A stretch of 64,000 nt of DNA from positions 1,050,116 through 1,114,115 of the forward strand of contig NW_001865049.1 in assembly GCF_000002865.3 (NCBI RefSeq). The letters are read 5' to 3'. The notes beneath the pieces are model-generated. The model had not been told where the DNA came from and made no database searches. It saw only the letters and a list, made by a program, of their open reading frames with translations. Source of the DNA: Monosiga brevicollis MX1 (lineage: Eukaryota > Opisthokonta > Choanoflagellata > Craspedida > Salpingoecidae). Below, piece by piece: positions 24,001 to 58,914 of the stretch. Positions within the stretch are counted from its first letter, which is position 1. Every line of letters starts with the position of its first letter. Both the position numbers and the translations under genes were made by a program.

Positions 24001-24116
24001 TGTGTCATCCGACAGGTCCAGGAAGAAGCGCTCCGTTCGAAGCAGACCATCTGTGCAAGTGTGCAGCGGTGTTAGTCAACCAAATTTGTGAACCGACCTG
24101 GGGTTGTGGTGCCATG

Positions 24117-26259: not shown

Positions 26260-26869
26260 GCCCCTAGGGTGATATAATGTCAACAAGCAGGACTAGCAAC
26301 GCTTCCAAAAGGCCTCGCTGGAGTGCGCGGTTGAGTCAAAAAGGAACGGAAAAGAGAAACAGAATGAGATGCCAGAAAGCCACATGCAACACACATGGCG
26401 TCAAGGCATTGATGCTGGGGTGAGTCGCACGTTCAAGAGAAATGGCGGCACGCAACCCTGTGTGGAAACACGGCCAAGGTGATACGCCCACAACACGTCT
26501 TGTGCTCTGAGGCTCATCTGACGCCCTCAGGGAAGGAGAGGGAGAGAGGGTCAGAGTGAAAAGAGGCAGAGCGAGTCGCTGTCGCTGGGACGGTTCAAAG
26601 AACACACACGTTCTTTTTGTGTTTTGGCAAGAGAGAAACTGGCCACAAAAGGTTCTGAGCGATATTCGTCATGTCCTTGAGACCCATGAGGTTGACACAG
26701 GGATACTTTTTGGGAGATTTCGTGCCAAGTCTCGGTAGGGTTAAAATGTGGGCCCGAGATTGGCTTCGTCAAGGCCAGGACAGCATCCGAATTTACAAAA
26801 TGTTAAACCTTTTGTTTCTCAAGCACCCATGTTTTCATCAGCTGATTCGATTGCGAACTCTGGGCAAAC

Positions 26870-26960
26870 CAGGGGGGCGTGACCAAGGGGGGCGTGACCA
26901 GGGGGGAGTGACCAGGCGGCGGGACCAGGGGGGCGGGACCAGGGGGGCGGGACCAGACCA
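26870..26960 (+). repeat. G-rich minisatellite
   Basis: Six or more imperfect units of about 13-15 bp, built on G-runs of five or six followed by CGTGACCA or CGGGACCA. The closely spaced G-runs could form a G-quadruplex on the plus strand. Confidence 0.85.
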
Positions 26961-27017
26961 ACCGTGTGGTCAGGATCACCAGACTGACTGACAAGCCACC
27001 ATGGCACGTGTCAGTTC

Positions 27018-27067
27018 NNNNNNNNNNNNNNNNNNNNNNNNNNNNNNNNNNNNNNNNNNNNNNNNNN
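27018..27067. other. Assembly gap of 50 N
   Basis: Fifty consecutive N next to a long GA repeat. The round size suggests a placeholder, so the real length is unknown. Confidence 0.98.
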
Positions 27068-27650: not shown

Positions 27651-30317
27651 TTACATCATATCCTCGACCTCAAGATAACCACCATGGTCTTCTGAATCCC
27701 GATTCGCCCGCACCATCTGCGTACGCTGAGTCCAAACCTCTCGCGGCCCATCTGCAAAGGTGTCTTGCGTGTTGGCTGACAGAGACGGGCTCACTCGGCC
27801 TCTCTGTGAGCTGAACCAAGGAAATTGAAATGATCCGCGTGAATTGTGGCGGGACATTGCGGCCTCGTCTCGGTTTTCCTCTTGCCGCGAGGTCACCGAG
27901 TCCAAACGCCCCTTGCTTGAGCTGTGAGAAAGTCGACGTGTTCGGCGGACGGGCGATTGAACCCAGGTTATCCCATCCGCATCGGTGTCGGTCACCAACA
28001 TGTTTCGAAGTGCTGTATAGTCAACTGAAGGGGCAACGCTCAGTCCTCGCACAGAGGGCAAGGTAGATGGCAAGTGTTTTGGCAGTTGTGCGCGCCGCAG
28101 AATGGCCGATTTGCGAGCGTTTTGACGCCACAACCGCAGAATTCGCAACGTTACATCCAGCGCCTTGACATCCAAGACTTCGTTCCGGATGCGCCGCTTG
28201 CCCGCAACAGTCAACTCAAAGTTGCGCTCATGCAAGAAACGGAAGTGTGCTGCCAAGGCAGCCACCGTTGGGTAGATGATGCCACAAGATGCACACTTGA
28301 AAATCTTGTTGCCTGAGTGAGCCACGGGCTTGGCGTCATCAAGACCAGAGCGCGAAGCCCACAGGCCAAGAACTCGGTCACGAACGGTGCGGTTATAAAG
28401 CTCAAGTTCTACTGCTGCTCGGATTTCGTCATTTAGTAAGCGTGACGCAGATCGAAGGTGCCAAATCATCAGCACAAAAATCAAGATGACGGACAATGGC
28501 ACCAAGACTGTAAGCGATACGTTGGCCCCAAGCCCCAGATCAACTGATGCTGCGCACAGACTGAGAACAAACAAGGCTAGCAGCAGCGCCCCGGCCGCAT
28601 GGATCAATGTACGTGTGCGCTGCATTTGCAGCTCAACTTCTTCTGGTATACGATAATCGCCTTCCAAACGCACTTGTTTCAAGAGCTGGTTCTTGGCATG
28701 CCAGTAGCGATGGAGTTCACGGCGACTCAGCACGATTGCTGCTATTAAAACGAACATGAGGTTCATGCTATTCGTGACAATACTCCATATCGCACGGCTT
28801 GCTGCTGAGCTTGCAGGTTCCATGTAAACAATCGCAAAAGTGCAATAATCTTGATCGTGGACGCGCAAGGCGAGCACATCCGATGAGCGCGTGCCGTTCA
28901 AGGATCCCTCCAACGTGATGGTGCGCTCGTTTGCCACAACCCACAGCGAGCGGTTAGCGGATGTGAAGTCAGCCAGATGTACAGGAAGACTCGCGTTCTC
29001 CATTGTAGCATTCAACACCACCCGCCGCTTATACTCAAGGTTCTCAAGAGCAGAACAATCGGAAATCAAGCCGGCGTGGGCTTGGGCATGGTCATGGCTC
29101 AGACTGATCAGTTCCAGTGAAAGGTTGGTCAAGGACCACTCAATGTCAGTCACCGGCACGATGACGCTCGTGTTGAAATCATTGAGAAGCCAGCGTACAC
29201 TGCGGGCTACCGGAGCGTCGTTGACTTCACGAACCAGAACTCGCAGCTCAATACTTTGCTCTGAAGTCAGGGGGTCTTCAGCAAAGGAATCACGAATAGC
29301 AAGGACTGTCGTTTCCACGCCCGTGGTATTAGTAGGACGGGGCCAGTTGTGAGGTGGTGAATAAGTCACACGCAGAGTGATGGTAGAGGCTACACCCACC
29401 ACACGACGGGCCACTTCGACCATAGAAAACGTGCCTCGGGCAGCTTCGTCCACAATCTCGGCGTCGCTGGCCAAAGGTTCGAGAAGAACCAGATCCATGG
29501 TATCACCCTCATCATACTCGACCACCGTGACATCAAACGAGATTTCCTCATCCTCATCAGTCATCAGGTTGAGCACGTAAACCACATCCTCTTCAAGACG
29601 GAGATCGCCTCCTACACTCACTACTGACGTATTGTCGACCTGCAAGATTGGTCGGTCATTGACCTGCTCAATAAAGACGTCAACCTTCATCAACACATCA
29701 CTGACAATATGCGTGCATGGGTTGAGCAAACCGTAAGCATCAAAGGTGGCTTCATGAATGCGGAACGTCAGGGAATCAGCACCATTGCGGTAGGGATTGC
29801 TCATGTAGTACCATGCTTCAGTACCATCATCATATCGGACGGTGCCTTTGCTAGGTACCGTGTCCACAGACACAATCAATGTGTCACCGTCGACATCACT
29901 CAAGTTCAATGCAATGGGGTGCCAGATGAAGTCATCCTCACGCACAAAAAGCGCCTCTGTTGATGCCATTGGTGCATGGCAGTGCGCGCTTGGATCGTAC
30001 GAATTGAGTGACAGGTGAATGGAGGTGTCGGGACCTCGCAGAATATAGGGTCGGCAGGAGGTGGCAGAGACATTGCTCATCGAGGCATTGAACCCGTGCC
30101 GTGCCATCAAATTGGATGTATTAACCAAAGTGGACAGCGTCGACTGATTCAGTGAGGCCGTGGTGACTCCAAAAATGGCCTCAAGAACTGCCTCACAGTC
30201 TGCCTTGGAAGCGGCTTCAAAGGGTACATGTTGACAATGGGCCCCACCCGAAACATCGCAGTCCCCCATCATCACGCGCAAACTGACTTCGGCCTCATGC
30301 TGCGTCGGCGAACAGAG
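27651..30317 (-). other. C-terminal exon: cadherin-3-like repeats, three TM helices, C2H2 finger, YLEV end
   Basis: The 889-codon last exon starts with Ca-binding-type cadherin-like repeats with D..DGD, VNDRP and VNDAP motifs (about 29180-29950). Three hydrophobic helices follow at about 28730-28800, 28545-28610 and 28455-28525. After them is a single C2H2 signature, CASCGIIY with HFRFLH (about 28228-28305), then a basic stretch (RRIR, RILRLWRQNARK), a Ser/Arg-rich tail and the last residues GGYLEVEDMM. With a cleaved signal peptide and three helices, the finger should lie on the cytoplasmic side. A classical zinc finger on a membrane protein tail is uncommon; it could bind a protein partner instead of DNA. 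Confidence 0.75.
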
Positions 30318-33300
30318 CTACACACCAAGGACATCACATGAAGCAAGTGAGAACTTTTGGGGACTGTGTGGTCTACACAGAGCAGCGAGGGCAGAAAAAA
30401 AAATACGCACTTGAGTGATATACTCGTCTGCCACATTGCTCTCTGGTGGCGAAACGTTGCAGTAGCTCGCTCCGACGGGCAACCATGCTTGAAAGTACAA
30501 ATTCCAGGCGAACCATTCAAAGTGTTCGTCGGCAGGCAAATTTGGGACGTTGGCCCGAATCACCCACGGACCTACGCAACAATAGTCAAGTCAAGTCAGA
30601 ATGCACACTGCAACATCGAGCGGTGCGGTGCGGCGATGGTAAGAGGACACGATTTATTTGAAAGGAACGCACCGTTTGGCAGAGGTACATCTCCCGATGC
30701 AAGCGTGATTGATAGACCAAGGCTAAGACCAATCGGGGTTGATGCCCAACGACCTTCTGTCAAGGTGTCATTGATTGGATGCATGAAGGAGGTCAACGAG
30801 AACTTGGACTCTTCCAAGGTCAAAGGGTCCAGGCTGTTGCTGTCCAGAATTGTTTGCACCTCGTCCACATCATGAGGAATTGAAATAAGTGACATGTTGG
30901 ACAAAAAGCCAGCATCAGGCGTGTCCAATAAAATGGTCTGGATAGCAGCATCGCGCCGGCGGCGCGCATCGGCGTTGGCTCCAATATCAAATCTGACCGA
31001 GTTGTTATTGTCGCTGACGGGTTGATTAACAATCGTTTCTGTGTTGGATAAAAATGATTGACATGCGAGGTATGAGTGCACAACAGCGCAGCGTCAAGAC
31101 TGACAAATGATAAAGCACCGCACGAAATCACGACAACCAATCACCGCAACATCCGCAACCTACCATCTCCGCGAAGGACAAGGAAAGGCTGTGAACAGGC
31201 CGTCGATAGCAAGCCTCCGATGTTTGAAAGGCGCACGCAAATGTACAGTCGGGTGGCCAGAGGAAGCGGCAAGGTCTCAAATTGGCCATGATCTGCCCAA
31301 TTGGTTTGATCCAGAGGAGATCCACACTTGGGGCTCAGGTCCAAACCAGATAGAGAAACAACGGCCGTCAATTCAGGTTCGTCAATGGCACATGGACTGT
31401 TCGCGGCACGCCAAGGTGAAACATCCATAGTGGTCATGCTTGTGCCGACTCCCACATCTATAGCATTGAAATCGAATTTTAATGTGAGCCGAATTCGGCC
31501 AAACAACACATTTTCTCTGCAACTTCAAAAGGTCACAGCCAAGACAGCAAGTTACGTACAGTAGGAAAACAATTGGGTTTCCTCGTCGTGGCCTACAAAT
31601 TTGAGCTACAGGCATGCGCATCAAAGTGAGGACACAGTTGCATTGGTATGGTTCAGAAATGTCAGGGCAGGCGGAAAGTCAAAGCACAGCAAAATTTCTG
31701 ACCTCATAGCTGGTGTTCAAGGCGTACGCCGGCAAAGTCTCCGCACCGACTGCAATTTGGTCCATAGCCGCGGACTGTGCCGTCATCACAAAAGAATCCA
31801 TAATGGGCGGTGTCAAGTCAACCGAAATGGCGTTGCTGGTGGTCTCAGCAACGAGACCAGCGGCATTAGTCGCGAACAAATGAACCGCAACCGAATCGCC
31901 TTGAGCCAGCGTCAGATTGGCGGCGTTAGCGACCAAAGTACCGCCCATAAAGTCAGCATCCAGATCCACACTGCCCCGAGCTCGGGCAACGCCGCTTATC
32001 TCAAGGCGCCAATCCACCTGAACCACTGGGCTTTCGAGCTCAAACACACTAAAGCGGAAATATACTTCGCTGGAGGTTCGAAGGGCTTCGATGGGGCGGT
32101 TGCGATAACCACGATCAACGAAGCGAACTACTCCCACAAAGGAAGGCGCAGTAAGGTCAATGGTGGTGGCAGGGCTCAGCGATACCGAGGTAAGCCCAGC
32201 GGCGTTTTGCATGGCGATGGCAAATCGATAGCTGGCAGGTGCAAAGAAGGTGATTGTCGTGCTGTTCTCATTGCGTTGCTGACCAGACGTTTCCGTGAAC
32301 AAGCAGTTGTCAATTGAGGGCCCACCACAGCCCAAACCCTGGCACTCGGGGTGACATGGCGCACAGGTGGTGTTGTTTGAGAAGTGAGTGATGGGGCAAA
32401 CAGCCTCACACGAGCCATCGTAGTCAACAGCACGGCACCCATGGGTCACGTTACGGCTCGGGTCAATCAAACATTCCGTCTTAGTCGGTCCCGAACATCC
32501 GTACAGACAGTTTTCGTGACAAGCCCGGCACTGACCGCCAGGTGCCACATAGGTCAGGTTTGGACAATTCGTCACGCATTCACGCAAGGATTCCAGCGCC
32601 ACGGTCGCGGCATCTTCGCTGTCAACATCCTTTGCTGTTGTGTTGGCCGCGCAAAGCTGGCAGTCAGAGGGCATCGGGCCACTGCAGGACAAGGCACTGG
32701 CACACTGCTCGTGACAGGCCAAGCAGCGTAGCGTGTATTCTTCCTTGTAGTAGCCCGGGGGGCAGTCCGTATCAAGGCATGTTCCGTTGAGCTCAGCTAC
32801 GCGACAACGTGGACAGGAGGCTTGTGCCGAAGGAGAGATGGAGATCGTGGTGGTCGTGGTAGTAGTTGTCGTCGTTGAAAAGGCTTGCGTGCATACTGGC
32901 GAGCAGTCACTGGCAGTAAGGCCCGTGCACCCACCCAAGCAGTTGTAGTGACATGACTGGCATGCGTCATCAACAAGAATTGCGTCGTAAGCGCAGGACG
33001 CGACACACGCATGGCCAAAGGCAGCACGCATGGTCCCCGCGGGGCACGTCGTGCAATCACGCGCGAGGCTACCGACACACCAAGCAGTCGAAGAATTTTG
33101 CTCCATGAGCAAAGGGGTCACTGGTGAGTTGATAAATAGTTCGTCAACGGCAACTACGCTGCCATCGGCGCGTCGGAATTGTTTGCTAACAGCGTCATAC
33201 ATTGGAATTTGCCACTCAAGCGTCGTTATGTTGGCTCGAATTGACACCTCTTGCTCCACGGTCGTTGCATTAGTAGTCACGTTATGAGTTACTGTCACAT

Positions 33301-36300
33301 TTTGCAACGTTGTCACGTTGGTGGCGACCAAAATCGAGGCAAGGTCCGCCAAAAGTACTTCCAAAGGCCAAGAACCAATGCGCCCTTCAAGTGACATCTG
33401 ACCATAACCGCTCACCACCTTGCAATTGCCACTCAAAGTGTCATTGACCGCAGGCATAAAGTTAGGCATGGGTCGAGGCAGAGCGTCAAACGTCCACCAG
33501 GTACGCACACCCTCATCCACACGAACAAGCAGAGAGACGTTGTCATATGAGTGTGGCACGGTCACATGAATGTCATCCCCAAAGCGGGGATTGGCATCGT
33601 GCAATTGTGCAAGTGGATCCACAACACCAGGCAATTTCACGACGTCCACCAGCTGGGCAGGTACCTCAAGCGGCACAACGTCTCGAATCAAAGGCTCTTG
33701 ACTTACAAAGTCAGCCTGAATGTCCATCGTTGCCGAAATTGTTTGGTTATTGACTGTGTCTGTGAATGAAAGCATCACCGATCCTATCACGGGGATGTCG
33801 ACCTGGAACGAAGCGCCGTTTTCACTCACAACTTGAGTCACGGTGACATCATCAGTGGTCACAAGCTGCTCGATGAGGACCTGGCAGGCCGGATCTTGCA
33901 GCTCATAGCTTATGCTGACCTGGCTGGTGTTGACAGGCAGTTGTACGCCTTCCGGGTACGCCCGAGAGGTGTTGACAGCCACAGCGCGTTCGGCAGATAC
34001 TTGCATCATCAGCGCCTTCATGCAAGGCTTGTTGCCGCGTGCAATGGCAAAAACAAGCTCTTGCACCTCGTTTGTTCCACGGACAGCATCGTAAGCCGAC
34101 AGTTGAAGCGGGCTTGTGGCCGTGGTCACAAGGGCAGCACCAGAATCCCCCACCGTGATGAACTCATCCATGGCTTCGACCAGTACAGTAAAAGGGCCCG
34201 ACGGTTGGTCCACGTAGATTGTAGTACTATTGCCCACACCATTCAAAATGGCCGTTTGTGCCTTGCCGTGAGCATCAGTCACGTTCACGTTGACCATCAT
34301 TTGCGACCAAGCAGCTCCATGCACTTCCACAGTTATGGGCATAGCCGTGCACACGTCACCAGAGTTGCAAAACTCTGTCATCACAGAGCACGTTGCTGAG
34401 CGCTGAGCAAAAACAATGCCAAGCTCGTTCCATTCTTGCAGACTGGCAGTACAGCCAATCGCGTTGGAAATTCTGAGATAAAAGTGCTCAGATGAAGCAA
34501 CCACCCGCAGTGACACTGTTCGTGTTGTGCGCGATACATTGACATGGCAACCAGCCCCATCGGAGCATAGCTGATCAATAACCGTCAAGCCTTCAATCGA
34601 GTAATCCTTGGCTAGTGAAGTTTCCACAACGCGTTGCACAAACAAGGTGCTCACACTGGAAGTGACCCCATCCTGGGCCCATGCAGTGATTGTTATGGTG
34701 TTTGTTGCCGCTGTCAGTCCCGTAATCAACACCGCGCCATCGCCCGTCCACTCATGCGAGGCGGGCGCCGGTACGGATATGTCGAGCGTTGCATGAGGTC
34801 CGATCGCGGTCAAGCTCGTCAGAGTCAGCTGCGTTTCTACGGGCGAAAGCGTCACATTGCGCGTGCTTCCAATCGCAGACACGGTCACGTGTCGGTGTGC
34901 AGACACTTCAAAATTAGACAAAGCCACAGTCGTGGAAGGGTTGCCACGAGTCAGGAAGAGCGTGTAGCTGCGGGGTGGTACGGTCAAATCTTCCGCTTGG
35001 ACGCTGATGACGATAGAAGTGGGTTGGGACGGGCCACTTGGTGTGGGCACCTGTACGGAGAGTCCCTCCACAAGCTGCCCCGCAACAAACACCCGGGCGC
35101 CCGAGCTATCGTATACACTCATATTTAGCGTCAGTGCCGCAGCGGCATGCGGCAGTGTGATGACGTAGTTGCCGCGATTCGAGTGCCAAACAGGCGACAA
35201 GGTCAGAATCTGACCTACGCCATTCTGTTCCACCGACTCCACTGCGAGGGAGGCTAGTCGGTCTTCAATTGAGGGTGGCGTTCGTGTCCAGCGAATCGTG
35301 TATGTGGTCATTGTTGCCTGATCTTCGCTAGTGACCAGCAACTGAACAACGCCACTTGTGCCGGTCGTCTCAAATACGGCCGCGTGATGCCCCCAGGTGG
35401 AGTTGACACGAGCAAAAGGCACAACACTGACGGTGGCAAACACATCGGTAAACCAGGCAAGTTTCAGGCGGCGCGTTGCGTATGCGACTGTCACTTCATA
35501 CTCGAAAGCGAGCTTGCCATCAAAAGCCGGCGATGAATCAAGGTATGTCAGGTCCTCAGCGTCATTGCTCTCCACGAAAGCAGTGTCAGCCGCCACAAAG
35601 AGCTCATTCACAAGGGAGTTGTTGGATGCTGGCGCACGGTGGAAGAATAAGCGAACCATGCGACGTCGACCGTCCAGCGTTTCCAAAAGCACGGTGGCAT
35701 TGACATTTTCAGTGGTGCCTTGCAGCTCTACAGGTGGGCTGGTGCCGTCAATCAGAAGACCGCGACTGACAAGCCCATCAAAGTGACTCTGCTCTCCTAC
35801 ATAGCAGGCAAGTGATCCGGCCATCACCAAATCATGCACCACCATCAAGTTGCCGGCCGTGCCGTTGCCACAATCCAAATCATCTGGGAAATGACGCGAG
35901 GGCAGATCAAATCCGGCCACAAGACCCCCCACTGCGCCTGCGTTGCATGCGCACGGGTAGCACACGCCGTTCGAGCCTGGATACGTGTCACTTGGGCAGG
36001 CATTGACACAGCCACCTGTGCTCAAGGCAAAACGCGGGCAATTGACGCATTGGTCTTCGTCAGGGCCGGTGCAGAGGCCGTCACAGCGCTCATGACAAGC
36101 CTGGCACTCAAGCGTGGTGCTGTTCTCAAAGAAGCGCGCCGGACACTCGGGCACACAGGTGATGCCATTGCTTGTAGTCAGATATGGGCCCTGGCATGAG
36201 ATGCAATCCGAGGCTAAGGGACCTGTGCAGCCATCCAAGCACTGTTCATGGCAGGGGAAGCAAAATTCATCCAAAGTTGCGGTCGCTTCAAACCGGTTCA

Positions 36301-39300
36301 ACCACAGACTGTCCAGCCCACCCAAGCGTGAAAAATGAGCAGACACGTCAGACATATTCATTGGTGCGCTGTCATCGGGACAAGCCACCTCTGAGTGACA
36401 GACTACGTCCCCACGGCTCGCCACTCGCATGCCAGTGAAACAGGACTCGCACTCCCACTGAGTAGGTCCCGAGCAAGAGCCATCACAAGACAAGTCGCAA
36501 TCGCGACACACGCCCTCCGCACTGGCGTACGTTCCATTGGGACACGCTTCCACGCACATGCGACCGTGTTGAAGGTTCTCACAGGAGAAGCATTGGTCGG
36601 CAAAAGGTCCGTAGCAGTTGTCAGCACACTGGGCATGGCAATCCTGGCACACACCCCGAGTGTCTCGATAGGTGTTATCCGGGCAGCTGGCATGACATGC
36701 TCCCTTGTACTCGGCCTCTTTGCAGAAGTATGTTTGTCTGCCAGGAGATAGACCAGTAATCAAGCCGTCAAATACAATCGCGTCATTCAGATCACAATCT
36801 GGATCACAGAGGTCGCTGCTGCAAGCGTAGTCGGTATTGCAAGGCATGCACGGGACCTGAGACAAAGGCACAAGTTGTGATGCGTCCACGGTGTCATTGC
36901 GAGCATCGACAATACCATAGCTCATGGCCAATATCGGGCTCTCCTGATCAGCATAGTAGCGCTCGTCCCCGCACACGGCTGAGGTGGCAGCGATGGGCGT
37001 TTGCAGCTCACGAATCACTATTTCATCAACAATGTCCAGAACAGTCTCATCCGTCATCAAGCGAGAATCAGGCATGGCACCGACAATGAGCGTAGAAGAT
37101 GCAAGCAGTTCAAAATCTTGCTTGGTAACGAGCTGTCGGCCATCAATCAGCAGGGTCATCACACCCACGCCAGAAATAGTTTCTTGAAGAGACAACTCAA
37201 GCTTAAAGTTGAGAACGTTTGACAAGGTCAACCCAATAGCTGACTTCTCGTCGCTGCTTGATGACCACAGCGCAACAGAGAGAATGCAACCTGTGTCAGT
37301 TTCCTCGATGCAGCTTGCCTGCATACCATAACCGCTTGGGCCGTTGTAAAAGATGTCAGCATCCTCGTCCGCATTGTTTACGCTTATCAGCGGCGGCGAA
37401 AAATGGTTGACGTCAGTTGTAAAGGCAAGATCAACGCTGATGCCCACGCGAGACGGAAGAATGAGATCGACCGAGTATGAACCCATCACCGGAGCCGCAG
37501 GCGCAAAGGCCAACGCGCTGCCAAAGAAAGCTTTTCGAAATACAACCGAGCTGCTCATGCGCCAGGCGTTGGAGCTTGTTGGGCGAGCCCGAGCATTATA
37601 TAATCGTGGTAATGTGTAGGCACGATTCAGTACTGCAAACCGCTCCAGCGTGCAACGGGACAAATCAACTCCACAGCGAACGCTCGTATTAACGACAACC
37701 GGCACCAAAGTCGCCAAAGCCGTGCTCAGACTGCATTCGGAATCGGCCGGTGGGTGTGCCAGGGCAACAGTCAAGTTGATATCATCTACCTTCTTGAGAA
37801 ACGGTGTCGCCATGGAGGTAATCTCAGTCCCAATGATGACGGCACCAGCCCGGGGCGGTGTCTGATCTACAATGATGAGAGGCGAGCACACAAAAGCTCG
37901 CAAGCCCGCAGCATCGCGAATGCGCACAATGGTACGTAGAGCCTCGGCAGTGCCATCAATGTCTGATTCCAGCGCGAGCAGATTGAAAGAGGCACTCAAA
38001 TTGCCGAGCGTCGTAAAGTCGTCCTCGGTCACAGTAGCAGCTAGCTCTGCACAGCTGAGTGTCGACAAAGAACAGGCTTGACGATCAGCTTCAACCAGAG
38101 CCGCCGCCTGTTCAGCCACACCACTGTCTGCATCAAAAGTACCAGATACAGTCACAAACACACTCCCCTCAGTTGCATACCAAACAAGATCCTCTGCTGA
38201 AGCACCATCCGTTACTGGTTGCAAGGTACCCGGCGTGGGGGCAATGAGATCAACCTTGGCTGCCACTTCGCCCGTGGATTGACCAAGAGCAAAGTTGTGG
38301 GCCGTAAGGCGGACCTGAAGTGTATCAAGATGACGCAAGGCTGAGATGTCTTTGATGATATGGGTGGTCAGAGAAGGGTCCAGCTCAATGCGCTTCGTCC
38401 AGGCTGGTAGACCGGAAGAGCTCACAACCAGCTCCAGCTGACTGAGTGGAACGGCTGATTCTGGTTCATCCCAGGACACAAGAAGCGCACTGCTGGTGTC
38501 GGAAAACCATGCACTGCGGTTCAAAAAGAGAAGAGGCGTGGAGATGGACTTGTTCAAGCCACCGATAATGCCGTCGGAAGTAGTGGTGGCGTACAAGGTC
38601 TCAGCGCTGAAGGCACGGATACTAGCGTAGACGGTGGTGTTGCTTGCAATGGGTGTGGTGCTTCTCCACGTATAGCTCGTGGCCAGCCCGACAGACGTAA
38701 ACGGTAGCAAATTGTCCAGGTTGCTCTCGCTTGTTCCCGTCCCAAATGCGACTTCATACCTTTGGAGACACATTCACAAGCATTGCCACGGCATAAAAAA
38801 GAAAATAAAACAAAAGAAAGGGTGGGGTGAGTGAGAACACATATGCGTAAAAAGAGCCGAGCGGACCGATTTGACCTGATGATCGCCAATCACAGAAAGG
38901 TCGAAGTGTGCCAAAACGTACCGGATGATAGGAACTTCGTATGAACCGAAGCAGTCTTTGTCGTTGCGCTGGACACATGTGTGCCAGGTGGCCTTGAATT
39001 CATGGGCATCTTCTTGATAGTCCATATCATAGTCCATGATACCATCCATGATCGGGCCAACATCTGGGCTGGAGTCCAGGTAGCGAAATCCTATGGCATG
39101 AAAACAAATTATCAAGTCGAAGCTAAGAAGACAGCCAATCAGCCACACCACTTTCTAAACTCACCATCTGATCGCATGTTGCGATTGACCGAAAATTGGT
39201 CCTGAATCTCAAGCTCAAAGAAATATCGTCGACTGCTCTGCAAACCCTCTCGCTGTTCGCCATTGGGCTCCATATGATATAGATTGGTCACGGCATACTG

Positions 39301-42300: not shown

Positions 42301-45300
42301 AACGGCCAGAAGAGTTATGGAGCTGGGCGCTGAGATGACGGTCGTCCAGGAATTGCCTCCGCCGGTTGTTGTAGCCACGACCGATAGTGATCTGGTGAGC
42401 TCATCAGTGGCGGACACACTGAAGCTTTCAGCTGTAATGGTGGGCATGGCCACGTTGACCGTCAACTCCAAGCTTAGGTCGTGGTCAAACAAGTTGCAAG
42501 TAAGCACAAGCTGTGAGAGGGTCGTCGGCATCGAAACTGAGACTGGAACATCCGGTTGCACTGTCAACTGAAGATTACCACCGCTGCACTCCCAGGTGTG
42601 GCTATTGTGAGGGAAGGAAAGCTCGAAAACGCGCACTTGGTACGGAATATTGATCGTCGCGGCTGCGTCTGCCAAGCCTATAGAGTGGGGCACCCCATCG
42701 TGGACGAGCTGAACTTCTGTCGGCAGTTCAACCTTCTCGCGGACGACTACCAATTCTAGCAAAATCTGTTCGCCTCGCCAAAAGGTCAAAAGAGTATCGT
42801 CGTTAACAGTGGAAAGGGGAAAAGCCCGGCTGCTGGTGGTTTGCACGGAGAAAGTTGAAGCGCCATCTATTAACAGCAGGGCAATACGTGAGGGATGAGT
42901 TGTGCAGACGCGCTTCATAGCCATGCCGTCAAGAAAACATAAGCAAGCGATGATGAAGAAGAGTAACAGGGTGGCCACGATCCAGATCACAACAGCGCCA
43001 CATGCGAGACAAAGACTCCAATGTCCTTCACGGCAAACGGAGTGAAGTGAAACCATTTGAGACTCAAAAACGAACCGTTGACAAAGACGGGCTCGCCGTG
43101 AGCCACATCGATGCTAAGAGTGATGCGATCTTGTTCGAATGGCAGGGTGGCCTTCAATTGTCGAACTCCAAAGCTCTCATAGCTCAACACATCAACATTT
43201 TCGTCCAAAACGTGCACACGCACAACGTCCTCCATTGGAGGGCTTAACGTGAGCTTGTAGGTGCTCGTCCTGCTGCCGTCTTCCGAAGTGGCGGTCAACG
43301 TATAATGACGTGCGACCACGCCAGCCGACATGGTGATGGGCGACCATACATTGGCTTCGAGCTGACGCTCTAAGACTTGGGTCTGGTTTGTATCCACGGA
43401 CAATGATACGGAGTCTGGCGTGGAAGAGTCGAGATAGACACGAAAGCCAGACGACACGGCGTCCAAGAAATGCTGACCAAACGCCCCCTCCACTCCAGGG
43501 TGGTCATTGGAGACGTGGTGGCGACACAGCGTCTTGGCTCGCACCAGTGCGTACAGCTGTTGCCCTTGTAAATCATCGATTGGGAGGGAAGCGACAAACA
43601 CGCCCTCCGTCCCTTGTACCAGGATCTCCTCATCCGTAAGCGGGACTACGTCAGTCTCATATGGGCTTGTACCGAGGCCCCACGTGTAACTGTGGATGCC
43701 GCCACATAGCTCGGATGCAAAGCCATAAAAGTGCCCAGCCACCTGGAGATGGCTCTGAATCTCCACATCAAAGCTGACGGTCGGGCCATCCACGACTGTA
43801 CCGATGCGATCTTCATCCGGCATGCGGAAAGGCTCTGATCGCGCACTGCTGGAGAGGCCCGCGCCATTGTGACAGGTGAGCTCAAGCTGATAGTATTGGT
43901 CTGTAGTGAGCGGGGATGTCAGCATCAACGTCGAGCGTGAAAGCTCAGTTGTAGCAATGCCCCCGCTGCTAAATTGTGCCATTGGTGTGAAGGTTGCGCT
44001 GGCTGGGTCGCTCTTTGCAGCTTCGGATTGGGTGGCAGGTAGAGTTCCTGCTCTGAGATAACAGCCAGCTACGCCTGACTGCAAGTCAATGACCGTCCAA
44101 TAGGCCTGAAGCGTGTCGGGCGTTTCCACCAAGACAAAGCCTGCAGCATCCCGCCGGCTGTCGGCAATATTGTTCGCGAACCCCAAAGCCGGCCCGTCTG
44201 AAATGACTGGCGGTGATGAGTCGATGCGCACACCGCTCGTGTAGCGCTGGGTCTTCAGTCCAACGTTGTTGTATACTCGTACACGGGCTGCAAGTGTCGC
44301 GCCATCACTGATGACAGGCAAATTGGCAAAATCAATGGATGAGTGAATGTCAACACCACCGTCTAATCGAGTGGTGAGCTCGATGACGAGACCATTGGGG
44401 TCATGATGGCTTTGCGAACTCTGGCCAGTAACCCGGGTTGTGGTCGACAGTAGTTCCAGAGCTGGCGCAGAGCCAACAAAACGATAAAGCGTGATTTCGA
44501 CGCGTGCCACCCCCGAGTGCGGGTCTACGGAAGCGAACGATTGTTCGAGCCTGCCCGACCCCGACACCCAGTGCTGCGAGTCTTCGGCCTCATTTTGATT
44601 AGATGCCACCTCGCCGTCGACAGCGTACAGCAGCACCGGAGGCGTGGCGTCGATGATAAGACCATCCGTAAAAGCAACTGTGCTGATGCCTGCTCCGTTA
44701 GTTGCCCGCACTGCGCCGATAACATGAGCGCCGTCGGCAAAGGACATGCGTTCCGTAACAAAAGTGGTGGCAGTAACATCAATGTCTGCAAAATCCAAGA
44801 AAGCTTCGGGATCCACAACCGAGCCTGAGCGACTGCCAATTGCGACCTCCAGACGCGCAATGGAGGATTCCGGGTCCGAGAAGCCCGTAAAGGACATGCG
44901 GTAAGAATGGAGTGACGATGAGTACGTCCAATCCGCGACTTGGCCAGCCTTTAATGTCCAGTCGGCAGAAAGCCCGTCGCGTAGATAGCCCGACGAGGCG
45001 GCCGGGCATGCACTGGCGTCGCTGTTGGCAATGCAAACGCAGTCGGCCAGGGCGGTGCTTGTCAAAATTTGAAGCTCGTTGCGACGTCCCGGGGAAGCAA
45101 TTGGGCACGTCAGATCCACCATGAAACCATCAGAGCGAGCCGAAACGCTGAGAAGATCCAAGCCGCCGTGATAAGCTGTAATGGTCGAATAATAGCGAGT
45201 CGCATGGGTGAGAGGCTCCGCGAGCTCAACTCGACCCGCCGCAGCATAAAACGGTAGGGACTGGTTTACAATCACGTCGCCGTTTGGATTGAACACCCAA

Positions 45301-48300
45301 CCAGTTTTGGTGAGATATCCGGCTCGGACGATCCACCTAAAGCGTGATGATGTGTCATACATCCGACAAGACACAGAAGTGAATTTAAAATCCATAGGGA
45401 AAAGAAAAGAAAAGAAAACAGAAAAATAAATAACATGTCAATAAAAATAAAAAGCGTCAACAGAATGACGGGTCGAGAAATCACGAACCAGTACGACGAG
45501 ATGCCGGTATCCGGGTCACGAAAGTCAGCAAAATTGACGCCCACCACGGAGGGATCGTTGGTAAACGATAAGTCTTGCTCAACTTGAGAGCCATCCTGAA
45601 CTTCACCAGCCAGCGGAGCTGCAAAAGGAGTTGATGCATCAGCAAATGCATGTGTTGCGTTGAAAGACACAGACGAAGCCGCGGCGGGCAGAGCTGACTT
45701 ACGTGTTGTATCGAAATACAAAGGTTCGTTACTGCCGACGCGAGCAAAGAGATTAACCAAGTCAAACGTCTCCAGCTGTGGGTAAATGTAGACACCATCG
45801 GGAAGTTTGCCAAAGCTGTATTCAAATTGCGGATGCTGATGAATGTCTCCACCAAAGGGAACCAGCGATGCGTCAACCGGGAGCACACCCAGTGCAACTC
45901 GGTGGGCCGCTAGGCCGGATCCTTTGTCCCATGCAGTGATGTTGAACGCGAGAGAGCCTTGGGTGGAGCCCACGGTGGCCTTTAACTCGACGATCGAAGG
46001 CGGTGTTACATCAACCTTCAGTGGAATGGTTTGGCATGCTAGTGTGGACATGGGCCCACCAAAAATGACCGAGTTGAAAAAGTACAGCGACTGGTAGTAG
46101 TCGCCTTCGCGAAGATCGAGACCATGTTGCCCAGCCGCACGACCATCGGAGTGGCGCCACGGGATTACATCAGTACCACAGGGCTGTGTGCCGACAGCCC
46201 ACAAAGTGGCATACAACTGTGTCTCTGGGTCAATAGCGGGGTCCCAGCCAAACTCCACAAAATCCTGAAAGCGCTGATATGTGCGATGGTTGCTGATAAA
46301 GGCGCCTAGTTTTGTGTCACAAAGTTAGTCTGAGCAGGGTAGCGGAAGAAGCAACTTGCGGCGCACACGTACCATCAATTGACCCCATCGCGTCGTGTAA
46401 GATGAGGTGATTGTCATGGGGTGTGACATCGTCAGCTGCGCAGCGAGATCCGATCGACGATGCAACCTCGTCCAAGACTTCAGCAGCCTCACACGCATGA
46501 TAGACAAGCTCGTTACGGTGCTGGTCACAGGCTTGGGTGCGAATACTACGGGGCAGATTGTTGGAGGTTGTGCCTGCACTGTCATCACAGCGTGCTTCAT
46601 CATACACAATTGGTGGCTCAGGAGGCGTGAGGTCCACTACAATGCCTCTGTCCTGCGACGTGGAAAGGAGAAGCTTGTCGTCACTGGACCGGATGTTGAG
46701 GTAGACAATCTCGTTATGTCGCAGCTTGCGTTCTGTGGCAAAGTCCAGGTTGCCGGAGCGCGAAGTATGCAGACGGTTGGTCCACGACACAAGGTCAGCG
46801 CCCTGCCCGTCTCCCAACACGGGAAGAGCAGGCTGCAAACCAGCAGAAATTTCGAGGAGAACCAGCGGAGACAAATCGTCAGCCGTCCATCCCCCAATGA
46901 TACGCTCGTCGTGGCTTTGAATCGTGTAGTCCTGTGACGTCCAATTGACCCAAATACGAGAGACGTGAGACAAAAATGTCACATCATAGGATAGCAAGCT
47001 TTATGTTGGGCGTGTCAGCATGACGTACGTTTGTAATACTGAGAGTAGGTGGTGTGACATCGTATCTTGTCGCAGTTTGGCAGTACTGGGTCGAACTGAC
47101 ACCAAAAGTATTTTGCGACACCACTTTGGCAAAGACAATCTTGTTTTCATCCACGGGAACCGACTCCAGGGGTACCTTGGTCGTGTCCTTGTCAAATTCT
47201 CTATTATTCAACACTTCCGTACCATCCTTGCTGTAGCCGACCGAAACAAAGATCTTGTCTACAGCTGACTCAGCCTCATAGCTTTGAAAGTATATGGCAA
47301 GGTACGGCACCTATATGGAGGAAAATCTTTATGTTAAACAGGTGACGTTACAACTCTTGACAAGATGCATGCCAGTGAAAGCTACAAGACATGACAACCC
47401 ACCTCAACATCCTCTCCGATAGTCTGATTGATGACACAACTGGTTTGCGCGAATAAAGGGCCAGACTCGTCAACTTCACTGCTGCAAGTCCTTATCAAAT
47501 TCTTCTCGATTGCTGCGGCTGAGAAGGAGAAGAGCGTCGCTCGGAAAATGGTGCTGAATATCGTCTACAAGAAGCAGGGCGCGACCAAGGATCAGCACAA
47601 GCAGTTTGCGTTACCAACTCAAAAAGGGCCTTCACACCTCCGCAAAGGCTTCGCATGAGATGCTCAATGGAATCAAGATCATGTCCACAACAGTGCATTT
47701 CTCGTATGGAAAGGCCTAAGACAAGCATGCAGGTTACGTCAAGATGGGTACCAAATCTTCACCCATTAGTCGAGTAAGTGAGGATGAACCGACGTACGAA
47801 GTATTGCACAGGACGCGAAATCGGAAGACGAATATCGGCAATGGTGCCTCGAAGCGTCAGACCACCACAGAGCACCATACATTCGCCGATCTACACAATC
47901 AAACCAGATGAAAAAAAAGATGCGAGTCCTTTCTGTTGACATGAAAACAAAACAGCAGACATACCGCAAGACTGATGGCGACTTGAAAGTTGAACTGCGG
48001 TGTAATGATTGCTGCAGTGGGTCAGTATAGCCATGAGATTCTTTTCAAAAAACCGAACCCCCCAGAAAGAGGAAAGAAAAACCTGAAAAGCGTAAAACCA
48101 CACACCACCTACGTGTTATTGTGGTTGACATGAAGCAAAACCGCAGACCAAAGCTCATGCCACCCTCGAAAAGAACCTCGCCGCGAATTGTGATGGGAAG
48201 TACACCTCCGACTAATGTGCACGGCAAGACAAACCAAGTACTTGAGCGTTGTGAAGTTTCGAGAACATGGTGCCACTTTGCCATGGTCATACGTACTGAT

Positions 48301-51300
48301 AAACCGAGTCTGCATTTGGAAAACCGTCATGGTCGAAGTAAACGGGCCCCTGGACGAAGGGTTGGGTCATCAGTCAAGTATGACAACGAAAAGAAGACCA
48401 AACCCAAACCAGAGCCAAAACTGGAACAAGAAATAAAAAATATGAAAGAACAGAAACAAACGCGGAACGTACAGGTTTCCGGAAATGCAGACGTCTTCGG
48501 GCGAGTCCAAATCGTTGCAGCTCGATGCACGACGCTGTCGTTGCGCGCCAACGGGCACCGCGCCGTCGCGCGTCAAGTAAACCATATCGTACTCTCCAAC
48601 ATCGATGATCTCATCGTCATCAGCGTCATGATCGGGCACCCAAACCAGTGAGTCAACCTCGGTGCGATCAGACGCGACCGTCAAATTCGCCCAGCGCTCA
48701 GCAGCGGCACTACGACGGCGTCGTGAAGACTTTTCTGATTTCCTTTTGGTCTTGCCAGGAAAGTCCTTTGCAGCACTTGCTGCCTCGCCAACCGTGCCTT
48801 GGAACAGCGTGAAGTCTAGCACTTTGAGAAAGACGAGGTCCAGTGTTTTGTCGAACAAGCCGGCAAGAGGGTTAAAGGGCAAGAAGCGACGTGGATCCAG
48901 CGGGTCCTCGCCATCTTCTGACTTGGTGGCGGCAAAATGAACGAATCGACCGCATGCGCTATCCTTTGGTTCGAGAGCTTCAGCGATAGTTTGTCCAGCC
49001 CGAAGTTTGGATCCCTTCACAATGCCAGGGATGAGTTTGACGTTTGAGATCCAGAAATAGGCACCCACGTCCTTGCTAGGTTTAATTGCGACCGAATCCC
49101 CGCGCACAACGACAATGCTACCATCGTACGGGGCAGGCACGTAGTATCGTTGCGCTTTGGTTGGGGCAGAAGGCGGGCTTGTCTTTTTGGAGCTTGAGCC
49201 CTTTTTCTTGATGCCCGATTTGCCCTTGTTGAAGCGTGCCGGGGTCTTTTCAAGATTCTTGAGACATTTTTTGTCACACATCGGGCTCAACTTCACAGAA
49301 AGACCGATACCATCGGGCCACAGCGACGAGTCGGTGTTCTCGGCCCCTAAAAGCTCGTTGGCAGGGTACTCCCCAGAGCCACACTGATCATTGCCTTTGA
49401 CTGTATCTGGAAAGAGGCTGTGCACCTTGGGAGTTTTGAAGCGGATGTAGGCCTCGTATAGTTTGGCCGCGACTTCGTGAATCGTGTCAGCCACATCAGC
49501 AATGTTATTCATGGTGGTAATGGCGCCCATTACCACTTGATACACGGCCTGGATAGGCTTGAGCAGATCGTTAAAGCTGGTGTCTTCTTGCAGAAGGGCA
49601 AGCAGTTCTTTGGCTTCTTCGAGTTGACTTGCGGAGTAGGACACGCAAGCGGGAGCGGTGGAGTTGGGCTCGCACACCACAGAGGTGAGCTCCTTCAGCT
49701 CTTTCACAGCCGCATCATATTGGTCAATGAAAGCCGTGTTGGCCCGAGAAACGGGGTCGATCCACTCTGGGAGCGGAGAGCCATCCAGTTGCAAAGCGCC
49801 CATAAAGTCAAAAAATGCCGTGGTAATGTTGCCGATGGCCAGTTGGACTTGTTGGATTTCGGAGAAGATTGAGGCCGCCGCTGCAGGGCCACATTCGTCA
49901 AGCAGGGCAATTTGGTCGAAAATATCACTGATGGATTGCTTGAGGGTCGAAGAATTGGTGGGCCAATACTTGCCAAACAAATCATCAATGGCTGCACACT
50001 TATCAGCCAGTCCACCTGTGATACTACGCAGGTGCGGGATGCCGATTTCAAAAAGTTTCTTGGTTTGCTCAGCCCTGCCCGCCACTTTAAGGGGTCGAAA
50101 ATTGATGAGGGTGTCCGTGAAATTGCTGAAACGGGTGATCACAGGCTGGACGTTGGCCCGGCAAGCACCATCAAGGCCGGAGACCATGTCATCACCGGTA
50201 GAGAAGATGGTGCTGGCGTAGTCGGCAAAGGATTCAAACCCCGCGCCCAAATCGTCAATCACTTCAACAAGTTTGTTAAAGTCCTTGGTGCGCTGGTTAA
50301 CGTCGAACATACCCTTGAGAATGCTCTTGTCGTAACCGGCAGAGAGAGCATAACCAGCAAACACGTGCAGCACGTTGACATTGATGCCGAAAAAGCCAAC
50401 CTGAAAGTAGGCTTTACACTCGCCGACAGCTCGCAGCAAGACATCGAGTGAGTAGCCATCTGCATAGACGTAAAGCTTCAGCTCGCCAGTCGAAGTAAAG
50501 CCCCCACCCACGGCTTCAGAGCCTATTTTGAAGCCATACGACAACTTGAGGTTGAGATCGGTGGTGAAAACCCCGTCTCGGACGCCGGCTTCGCTCTTTG
50601 CCTCTGCACTGGAGGATGAAGCGCGCCGCAGGCGTGGACTGAAAGAAGGGTCCGAGTCCATCTCTGCAGCGTAAGCCAGGCGCTCGCTGCGTGAAAGTGA
50701 GGCAAACTTATTTTTACAACGGCCAGGCTCAATGTCATGCAGGTAGCAGTAGTATTCCTCTTCAGGAAAGATCTCGTCATCAGAGGCTTCACGGCGCTCC
50801 ATGCGCATGTGATATTCGTCTTGTTGCTCATTGGCGCGGCGTGCGTAGTCATTAAGGAGAGTCTCGTGGTCTGATTCGTTGGCATGCATGATGTGCGACC
50901 GCAGTGCAGCGATGCGATGTTCGAGGGAGGAATCCTCGAGAGCAATGCGGCGCAGAGTGCTCATGCCCGCCGGGTCCTTGAGCTGGGCCAACGAGGCGAT
51001 GGCGTAATGACGAATGGAGTTTGCAATGGATGGGTCGGTGTCGTTTCGAGCCGTGAGGGCATGTCGAATCAAGGCGTCATTACCTCGCTGGTGTCTGGTG
51101 TTGCCAAGTGCGGCCAATACACTCGGGCGATGGTCGTGGTGGATGGTATGGCGACGAAGGCGCGCCTCAGGATGATACTCGAGCTGCGTTTGTTCGAGCA
51201 AACCCTCGAGGCGGCCGACATGCTGATGGGCTTCCTCAGCGGGGAAGCGTGATAGCACAGCGCCCAGGGCGAGCAGAGCGCCTTCGCGAATGTCTTCGTT

Positions 51301-53729
51301 CTGGAGGGAGAGGGGAAGCTCCTTGGGCTCGTAGCACACCTCTTGCAAAAACTGTAGGCAAGAGTGGCAGGGACCTTGAGCAAAAGCCAGAGCTGCAATG
51401 GCGTGCTGCGTCTGATTGAACGGAAGCAAGTCCAATAACATGTATTGAATGGCAAGATCAACGCCACCCTTCAGATCCGTTACGACTTGGTACACAAGCG
51501 CCGTGGCCGTGGCATCACTATAGTCACGGATGGTTTCCACGACCACGCCGCGAATGTCCTGTGGGTCGTGCATGAAGTGAGCAGATAGAACTCGTAAGTT
51601 GGGTCGAATCATGCGAGAACACACAAACGATCAGAAAGTGTCACACACGAACATCAATAGGAAGCTCGCGGAGTGCCCGTCGCAGCTCTTGGATGCAGTC
51701 CATGCGCTTGGGCCGAACAGGAGAGTCTAAAGGCAACGTGGGTCAGCGAAATTGGAGACAGAGCAGATTTCAACGGGATCCAGAGTCATGAGGCGATCGC
51801 CGGTCTACACACCGCCTTCGGCAGATTGTTCCAAGCACACCAGGCTGGCGTGCAAAAGCGGCGACTCTTCTTCTTCGTGTGCCGGCAGCTAGTTGCATCA
51901 TTAGAAATATCACAATGAAGTGGGGTGGGCACCATAAGCCTTTTATGCAGATACGTGACAATGGGGTGTGTGTTGGACAATCTTGTTCGGGTGACGTGAG
52001 TTCTGTACCTGCAGGGCAAGAAAATCGCGCAGGGAGCTGCTGTCCAGACCAGGGGGGACCATAACATGGCTCGCAGGCGAGGTCGTCATCAATACCATGT
52101 TAAACTCGCCCTACAGGCGTGTTTGCAATGTTGTGAGGCGTCCGATAAAATTATACAAATGATTGTGAACGGCCCAGAGGAAATTTACCTCGGAGTTGTG
52201 AGAGGACGTGTCATCACTGGCATAACCATTGTGTACGACGTGCTCGTGATCGTCCGCCGCAAACGCACCAAAGAGGTTTCCTGAGAGAGATGCCATGGAA
52301 GCAAACGACGGTTAAAGTTCATTGCTTTTGTGATGCATGGGGAAGCGGGACGAGGGGGTAACACGACATACCCTTGTCATTGGTCAATGTTGACTTGGCG
52401 TCGTAGCCATGAGGACCAGCACTGAAGCGCTGCTGTTCAAACAAATTCTCGGGTTGGCCGTCGGCGCGAGTGGCGTGTGCGGCCGTTCCTGACAGATGGG
52501 GATTCGGTAATTGTTCAAGTCAATAGCAAGGAGATTAGGTAAGCTGTCATGGATCAGGCTCGCAGAAATAACCCGTGGAATATTGCAAACAGGCTCAGTC
52601 CAAACCTTGTTGCTCCATGCCTTCAAAGAGGTAATTATCATTGCCATGTACTCGAAGGAGACGGCCATCAGCATGCACAACGTGGGTCTGCCATCGACGC
52701 ATGTCTTTGTCAGGATACATCGACAGGAGCGATGTCGATGGGCGATGTGAGGGCTCTATTCCACCAACCTTGACGGAGGTCGCCATTCGGGCGTGAGGGA
52801 TGTGGTTTTCCAGACGGCACTCGTGGTGGTATTCCCCGTTGTCCACCAACGTGCGGTAGTTGGCGTAGGCATCTGTGCACATCCAAGCGAGGTGAAGCGA
52901 GATGAGGGGGGCCAGTGGACTACGAAGATAAAGGGCGTGCGGGCAGTTGGCTCGGAGCAAGATGCCGTACCATGATGGTCTTCAAAGGCAGTGTAGTTGT
53001 GCTGTCCCATGCCATCGCCTCGATGAAGAGTACCTGCCAGAGTGGCTATGATGTTGCCTGGCAGGGTGCTGTGGATAGCTTGGTCTTGGGGCTCATAAAA
53101 CACACGGGCAACGCGGCCGTCTTGGCACTGAGCGAAAGCCAGCCTAACAGAGGAAGCAGGTCACATCAGGCCACGCTTAGGCCCGAAATAATATGTCACG
53201 AATACAGGCGAGCGCCAACGTAGGCAAGACAAGTGGGCTAACCAGATTTTCAGAGACTCTGGGCGAAACATCTGGTCCTCTTGCGCTGATGCAGAGGCAA
53301 AGCATCGGTCAGCGTGTACTTAGAGCTTAACAAAACACAGGGCTGTGAACCGAGCGGGGGGGGGGGGGCGTACCATGGCTCGCAACGTGTACTTGCGTGA
53401 CATTGATGGCCATGACGCTCGGGTGTGAGGTTGCGCAAACCAAGTTGCCCAAGTTGAGTTGCGCCTGAGCCTCCGCGTCGAGCGTCGTCAGCTCAAACTA
53501 AACAAGAATGGCGTGGCCGCGTGAGGACCAGAGGTGTGACAAACAGAACGGACAGATAAGGGGTGAAGCACAAACCGCATAAGTCAAAGATTGATAGCCT
53601 GATAGGTGCTCGGTGGAACGCTGGGACGACTCGGCGGACCATCGCGCGGTCGAAGTGCCTCTAGCATACATGAATCATCATCAACATGCCGTCGGCCAAG
53701 GGTCGACAGAGCACCGAGGAAGGTGGGTT

Positions 53730-53771
<42 letters not shown>

Positions 53772-53923
53772 ACCATGCATCAGCTCAGACGCAGCCTCAG
53801 CGCCATGACGAACCGGAAGAAGTAGCGCGTATTCGGGTTCCATATGAGCGTGGCCTGGGCTAAGCTGCTGATGGCCAACACGAAGGCCACTGCCTGCACG
53901 AGCGGCGCCTGCACGGCCGCCAT
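27651..53923 (-). CDS. 31-exon giant membrane protein: LLTP module, FN3-like, furin-like, cadherin-like, 3 TM, C2H2
   Basis: Hand-built minus-strand exons: 53810-53923, 53374-53497, 53243-53285, 52971-53143, 52769-52872, 52606-52687, 52372-52488, 52189-52280, 52009-52110, 51813-51888, 51649-51726, 48473-51590, 48297-48349, 48113-48211, 47965-48011, 47798-47890, 47638-47715, 47403-47564, 47029-47310, 46373-46931, 45489-46305, 43076-45336, 39464-42866, 39165-39367, 38922-39090, 31703-38759, 31560-31605, 31164-31457, 30673-31038, 30411-30571, 27651-30317. The sum is 23,040 nt, or 7,679 residues, with all phases agreeing. The start is ATG at 53923 with signal peptide (MAAVQAPLVQAVAFVLAISS). I found no second signal peptide or stop along the chain. 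Weakest splices: exon 1 donor (GTCATG), exon 12-13 join, and the exon 20 acceptor. Predicted surface protein combining a lipid-transfer-like head with adhesion-type repeats and a membrane anchor. Two or more separate genes remain possible, but no internal start or terminator supports that. Confidence 0.72.
30673..47564 (-). other. FN3-like DxTPP repeats, cadherin-like beta-sandwich repeats and furin-like clusters
   Basis: Exons 18-29 of the giant gene. FN3-like repeats share a front motif (DPETQLYATLWAVGTQPCG, EETQLFSYYVGVGTS, YEVAFGTGTSESN, DPESSIARLEVAIGS) and a back motif (VDLTPP, IDATPP, VDAVPP, VDQTPP). Between them are repeats like the Pfam cadherin-like beta-sandwich domain (for example LASLAVESV, then ILTLSPV, then YTLFLTR). 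Two furin-like cysteine clusters (C..C...CxGP..xxC) lie at about 35940-36860 and 32300-33075, the second broken by a Thr-rich linker (about 32840-32885). The front motif fixed several splice choices, notably exons 27-28. The architecture fits an elongated extracellular stalk. Ligands are unknown. Confidence 0.75.
48473..53923 (-). other. Large-lipid-transfer-protein (vitellogenin N-like) module and helical/M23-like region
   Basis: Exons 1-12 of the giant gene. After the signal peptide comes LIWNPNTRYFF, then FELTTLD, then LAFAQCQDGRVARVFYEPQD followed by LPGNIIATLAGTL. This is the order and spacing expected of the N-sheet of vitellogenin, MTP and apolipoprotein B (a WxPG-Y start, then an F..DGrV..vf..pxD line, then an NikrGIls.Lq line). 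Later, REGALLALGAVLS and HEAT-like helices (about 50900-51590) fit the superhelical domain, where vitellogenins have TALLALGSLV. Further on are long helical stretches, then an M23/lysostaphin-like barrel at about 48925-49150 with APYDGSIVVV, VKGSKLRAGQTIAEAL and GRFVHFA. The zinc-binding histidines of active M23 peptidases are not evident. The family call rests on remembered patterns. Confidence 0.6.
53731..53770 (+). repeat. 40-base A homopolymer in intron 1 of the giant gene
   Basis: Forty A on the plus strand, which is T40 in the transcript direction, within the 312-bp first intron (53498-53809). It may be slippage-prone. I see no target-site duplication to suggest a retroposon tail. Confidence 0.9.
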
Positions 53924-58800: not shown

Positions 58801-58914
58801 TTCGCAGTACATGGTCGGGCTACCACCTGCAATCCATTGCGCCTTTATGGCCTGGCAAGTGAGGAGTAGGGCGAGCACAAGGGCGCGCACCATCTTCCTA
58901 TGCCAAGCTCGCAT
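55876..58914 (-). CDS. Receptor tyrosine kinase with cysteine-rich repeats
   Basis: Minus-strand exons 56692-58914, 56399-56555 and 55876-56315 join in phase for 939 residues. The ATG at 58914 or 58893 precedes the signal peptide (MVRALVLALLLTCQAIKA). Residues about 30-220 form an ectodomain I do not recognise. About 221-528 are five 65-residue cysteine-rich repeats of GCC2/GCC3 (ephrin-receptor-like) type. A transmembrane helix lies at about 545-570 and the kinase at about 598-862. Visible kinase elements: glycine loop GNGAFGEV, AAKRL lysine, FRAELALMKELG helix-C Glu, HRDLAARN, DFG, activation-loop EQY, and LPVKWMAPE, which marks a tyrosine kinase. Nothing essential is missing, so it should be active. 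The tail has LYETI, a possible phosphotyrosine site. It phosphorylates protein tyrosines at the plasma membrane; the ligand is unknown. Choanoflagellates are known for many lineage-specific RTKs of this general layout. Confidence 0.93.
57330..58250 (-). repeat. 195-bp tandem repeats coding cysteine-rich modules
   Basis: Five units with an exact 195-bp period; the same 17-bp core starts at plus-strand 57374, 57569, 57764, 57959 and 58154. Each codes about 65 residues with PVGSEPNSERSGCDTCAAG and CADGTEPSG lines. The units are nearly identical, which points to recent expansion or ongoing gene conversion. Confidence 0.95.

Follow-up and report, generated by a model that had tools for sequence, protein, structure and literature searches.

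A single giant gene lies on the minus strand of a 64,000-nucleotide stretch of Monosiga brevicollis MX1 (contig NW_001865049.1, positions 1,050,116 to 1,114,115; hereafter the window, whose own numbering is used below). It runs from position 53923 to 27651 and is made up of 33 exons encoding 7,647 residues, with all phases closed and one stop. The exons sum to 22,944 bases, the longest measuring 7,057, and the introns measure 67-209 bases, with a median of 97. The model was built by hand from open frames and consensus splice sites, and then corrected against a paralogue residing on contig C50. An earlier note on this DNA is confirmed in the strand and span of the gene, in its one start (with a signal peptide) and one stop, in the three hydrophobic helices and in the phase-correct joining of exons; the note's counts of 31 exons and 7,679 residues are replaced by those of the rebuilt model. 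A loose automatic splice search produced a 368-exon chain spanning nearly the whole strand of the window; for this reason the in-phase joining of open frames is weak evidence alone, and an independent test, the comparison with the paralogue, was needed. The features of the gene are the following (LLTP, large lipid transfer protein).

27651..53923, minus strand: whole gene, 33 exons and 7,647 residues, splice sites and constraint shared with the paralogue
53852..53923, minus strand: predicted signal peptide, about residues 1-24, from hydropathy in both copies
52009..53851, minus strand: residues 25-331 (exons 1-10), in the position of an LLTP barrel, with no detectable similarity to it
50827..51888, minus strand: predicted HEAT-like stretch of alpha helices, about residues 332-625, similar to the helical domain of MTP
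48886..49161, minus strand: decayed Peptidase_M23-like stretch, about residues 1181-1272 (PF01551, below cut-off in both copies)
48529..48723, minus strand: furin-type RxRR sites at residues 1327-1330 and 1388-1391, between head and stalk, with counterparts in the paralogue
47403..48349, minus strand: small exons 14-19 and their introns, the frame of exon 14 set with the help of the paralogue
43076..47310, minus strand: exons 20-24, which hold the first block of beta-sandwich-like D-x-T-P-P modules
39464..42866, minus strand: exon 25, Cadherin-like PF12733 block (32.2 bits in a piece spanning exons 24-25, cut-off 24.2)
35848..36763, minus strand: furin-like cysteine-rich block 1, about residues 4790-5095 (GF_recep_IV, Furin-like; cysteine density)
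35282..35548, minus strand: Cadherin-like PF12733 domain (26.9 bits in the genome-wide search, 26.7 bits in the piece scan)
32263..33040, minus strand: cysteine-rich block 2, about residues 6031-6290 (cysteine density; the exon 28 frame contains four GF_recep_IV stretches)
29754..29975, minus strand: Cadherin_4/Big_9 domain (PF17803 and PF17963, 33.9 and 24.4 bits, above cut-offs)
28443..28793, minus strand: three hydrophobic helices, about residues 7268-7290, 7330-7350 and 7359-7384, from hydropathy in both copies
28230..28295, minus strand: C-x2-C-x12-H-x4-H motif in the tail, also found in the paralogue

The paralogue was detected in the same assembly (39.47 Mb, 57 contigs). A 47-residue stretch of the UNC18 gene of this genome agrees with solved chain 2xhe_A at all 46 aligned residues; that entry is the UNC18 complex of M. 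brevicollis, a structure whose existence is mentioned in PMC4224468, and the match places the genome in M. brevicollis or a very close relative. The paralogue resides at positions 1279796-1253672 of C50, on the minus strand. Searches with exons 13, 25 and 33 (89, 73 and 56 percent identity, respectively) each detected this gene and the C50 copy, and no others at E 0.001; the same pair was found with exon 24 (82 percent) along with three weak module matches, and with exon 28 (92 percent) along with eleven weak matches within the cysteine-rich part. In a tblastn search with the whole protein the C50 copy is colinear across residues 3-7622 (numbering of the first model). It can be read without a stop for 7,587 codons, as far as the donor that closes its 33rd exon; one further short last exon was recognized by eye. 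At the first comparison of the aligned loci, GT and AG were found at matching positions in 29 of 32 introns; after correction all 32 are common to both copies, with GT-AG ends and equal phase. Most of these (28/32) had been placed before the copy was compared and were kept unchanged, introns 1 and 2 being hand-placed in the C50 copy and introns 13 and 14 re-placed in the window gene using the copy. The DNA similarity of the two loci ends at most 16 bases from the start codon on the 5' side, and fades at 29110 on the 3' side, where protein similarity continues to residue 7622.

Over 7,555 aligned codons the two copies feature 82 percent identity, replacement (dN) and synonymous (dS) divergence of 0.107 and 0.541, and an omega of 0.20. 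When the 33 exons are taken one by one, omega is highest in exon 1 (0.51) and does not exceed 0.25 in any other, small exons 14-19 and 29-32 included, the values for exons of 7-17 codons being noisy; dS is saturated in exon 14, and exon 12 carries no replacement change. By these values each exon is under purifying selection. Intron identity varies from 32 to 91 percent. In the regions 48473-47403 and 31605-30411, which had been flagged for checking, omega is at most 0.25 in each exon and the splice sites are common to the paralogue. The claim that the segment holds one gene is thus strongly supported, by a paralogue that is colinear, open from head to tail and matched in introns and phases and by the constraint in each exon, and a single gene appears to be the only economical reading of 53923-27651.

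The stalk is the largest part of the protein. Furin-like repeats, as previously proposed, were detected in exon 28, where GF_recep_IV scores 92.5 bits (2.4e-26; cut-off 29.5) and Furin-like 47.1 bits (3e-12; cut-off 26.8). The proposed cadherin-like repeats are borne out for PF12733 and for the bacterial-type PF17803 and PF17963, not for the classical domain, Cadherin PF00028 being absent from the Pfam matches for the gene. PF12733 scores vary with the piece scanned: with the cut-off at 24.2, exon 25 alone gives 22.4 bits, and the domain at 35282..35548 gives 22.3 bits in a longer frame. The NCBIfam tandem-95 repeat is matched at 31.2 bits (cut-off 90), one other NCBIfam match lies at chance level, and a Pfam scan of exons 26, 29, 30 and 32 returned no family. 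The FN3-like repeats of the earlier note found no backing in the curated model: all 25 genome matches to fn3 (PF00041; best candidates scored) lie outside the gene, and none was found in Pfam scans of the gene, though the D-x-T-P-P modules look FN3-like. When an eight-module profile was compared to solved structures, FN3 domains of contactins and chitinase, as well as collagenase, were retrieved at E 0.5-1, which is not significant. Related D-x-T-P-P modules reside in a second pair of very similar genes (C50:1289589-1293535 and C43:1029985-1032958), the former located near the paralogue on the opposite strand. A weak CBM_5_12-like carbohydrate-binding stretch was noticed at 39925-39996 on the minus strand (E 0.0029, below cut-off).

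Three known types of protein share parts of this layout. Bacterial-type cadherin-like modules (PF12733, PF17803, PF17963, tandem-95) are represented by three Pfam models above cut-off, but are found here within a eukaryotic multi-exon gene and differ from the classical cadherin. The cysteine-rich blocks match, with GF_recep_IV and Furin-like above cut-off, the regions of the EGFR/insulin-receptor type, yet no kinase domain occurs among the Pfam matches for this gene. FRAS1/FREM-type matrix proteins are likewise giant, membrane-anchored, and made up of furin-like repeats and repeated beta-sandwich modules; in contrast, the protein described here carries a solenoid at its head and has three helices where those proteins have one, and neither CSPG nor Calx-beta is among the matches in general domain scans of the gene. 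Just upstream (55876-58977, minus strand; PK_Tyr_Ser-Thr 4.1e-32, Ephrin_rec_like) lies a gene for a receptor-type tyrosine kinase that carries cysteine-rich repeats in tandem.

Strong hydrophobic helices are confined to the last exon, and the signal peptide to the first. Weaker hydrophobic stretches were observed in both copies around residues 1514-1532, and in the window copy only around 1469-1489. Basic residues follow helices 1 and 3, as read from the sequence, and for this reason the tail should face the cytosol. The C-x2-C-x12-H-x4-H motif of the tail is kept in both copies despite a tail identity of 43 percent; among curated C2H2 models it matches the ZNF462 finger alone, weakly (E 0.25). 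An adhesion GPCR was considered and rejected, as each copy has three strong helices, not seven, and no GPS model is among the matches; a 7tm_7 match (E 0.055) is below cut-off.

The signal peptide and the three strong helices of both copies, the 78 N-x-S/T sequons of the whole protein, and the basic residues after helices 1 and 3 point to a surface protein. The gene probably encodes, as judged from its sequence, a giant cell-surface protein that acts as a long-reach adhesion receptor, its head binding a ligand and its tail lying in the cytosol. The protein would enter the secretory pathway through its signal peptide. Its head, which takes up roughly 1,600 residues and includes the alpha-solenoid, would bind the ligand far from the membrane, at the end of a stalk in which beta-sandwich-like modules and two cysteine-rich blocks make up about 5,600 residues; the three helices would serve as anchor, and the tail of about 260 residues, with its C2H2-like motif, may signal to the cytosol or anchor the protein in it. 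The head may bind a lipid or a lipoprotein, such as one from bacterial prey; this is a guess, to be regarded as a tentative lead. No relative of the protein was detected in scans of viral contigs and of prokaryote genomes, and within the searches made no described protein with this architecture was found. Among the papers listed (titles and abstract starts, with incomplete coverage of subscription journals, plus passages of PMC4224468 and PMC4219131) the protein is not described; no LLTP of choanoflagellates is described in the titles and abstract starts.

The lipid lead hinges on the head. LLTPs (MTP, vitellogenin, apoB, apolipophorin) share with it a signal peptide followed by about 300 residues and a predicted helical solenoid, and the solenoid aligns more closely than the controls with the helical domain of MTP. 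Among 90 segments, the helical head of the window copy ranks first against MTP and first against apoB, that of the paralogue second and seventh. These statistics refer to single human sequences of MTP and PR65 and to one segment of human apoB; the 88 control segments comprised 23 stretches taken from the protein itself and 65 pieces of open frames (at least 200 residues) in the window and in a number of retrieved loci, and these frames need not all be genes. The vitellogenin-like N-terminus of the earlier note could not be confirmed, Vitellogenin_N (PF01347) giving no match at E up to 10 in the heads of either copy, and 1.2e-86 in the human MTP control. PF01347 had no match over the whole genome, a result that is no proof of absence since control genomes gave none either. 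Further differences from LLTPs are the lack of detected similarity to the N-terminal beta barrel at residues 25-331, and of any match to the MTP lipid-binding domain in the protein. HEAT_2 matches in the head are below cut-off, and searches of solved structures with the head returned nothing meaningful. The alignment statistics suggest kinship with LLTPs for the helical half of the N-terminus only; the head alpha-solenoid is probably related to the helical domain of the animal proteins.

The alternative that survives best keeps the same single gene and takes the head as an ordinary HEAT solenoid devoid of lipid-transfer kinship, the protein being a plain giant adhesin. Its chance is substantial, if below even: the missing Vitellogenin_N, barrel and lipid-binding matches are in line with it, the ranking of both heads against MTP and apoB is not. 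Even so, few modular surface proteins of this length would be expected in an organism of one cell. Large lipid transfer proteins are regarded as an animal group, and no member of that family is known to have a giant stalk and membrane helices. It is conceivable, though rather doubtful, that a head of the vitellogenin/MTP superfamily exists outside animals at the tip of a membrane-anchored adhesion receptor of 7,600 residues, either as a relative predating circulating carriers or as a choanoflagellate reuse for catching lipid-bearing prey or partners. If so, a surface-tethered LLTP relative in choanoflagellates would alter ideas on the origins of lipoproteins, and the head would be a testable molecule for lipid or prey capture.

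A further alternative, which we consider unlikely, is that the protein is a membrane-held precursor, from which a furin-type protease cut sheds the head as a soluble lipid carrier. RxRR is found at residues 1330 and 1391 in both copies, and some animal LLTPs are cleaved by furin-like enzymes. RX[KR]R sites number seven in the window copy, against 1.2 expected from composition, and six of the seven have a counterpart in the paralogue; an RxRR site is also present near residue 6618. Yet this is a mere four-residue pattern, which also occurs within the solenoid, near residues 361 and 514, an odd place for cutting, and the lipid role of the head is itself putative. In the preferred reading, that of a long-reach adhesion receptor, the RxRR sites that both copies have at the passage from head to stalk hint at possible cleavage of the head, which would then be released or held non-covalently. 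The Peptidase_M23-like stretch preceding these sites matches PF01551 at E 0.05 (14.2 bits) in the window copy and at E 0.0011 (19.6 bits) in the paralogue (cut-off 28.7). Of the zinc-binding motifs of Peptidase M23, HxxxD and HxH, a single His is left; with both matches below cut-off and the zinc-binding residues mostly gone, an active peptidase was rejected.

That two or more adjacent genes (head, stalk, tail) were duplicated together is very improbable, because, although the pieces are joined here from sequence alone, the 7,057-base exon could stand alone and a co-duplicated block would also be colinear, no gap exceeds 209 bp, all 32 introns are common and every gap has spliceable, phase-matched GT-AG ends in both copies, the two loci cease to resemble each other in DNA at most 16 bases from the start codon on the 5' side, and, the weaker stretches near residues 1469-1532 excepted, helices are found in the last exon only and a signal peptide in the first only.

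The divergence of the two copies varies along the gene. Identity is 94 percent in the helical part of the head, 38 percent in the membrane helices and 43 percent in the tail. Synonymous difference is 0.04-0.09 at codons 4601-5600 and about 0.75 near the end; the low values were noted in 38759-31703 of the window, most of the rest being well above them, up to 0.77. Such a patchwork points to gene conversion within the stalk and, in the tail, to an old duplication of which traces are left. Two copies with similar heads and very different helices and tails are a natural experiment on the roles of head and tail.

Located 3' of each copy are 1,098 bases (25920-27017 in the window; C50:1252135-1253232) that are 100 percent identical and have no other match genome-wide, next to gene tails which are saturated. 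Both stretches end at assembly gaps (N run 27018-27067; C50:1235552-1252134), and may be either an assembly artefact or the outcome of very recent copying. Elsewhere in the window, an open frame of 1,922 residues on the minus strand (18310-24075) has no Pfam match at E 0.001, and one on the plus strand (59856-61976) matches OrsD barely above cut-off (26.8 bits).
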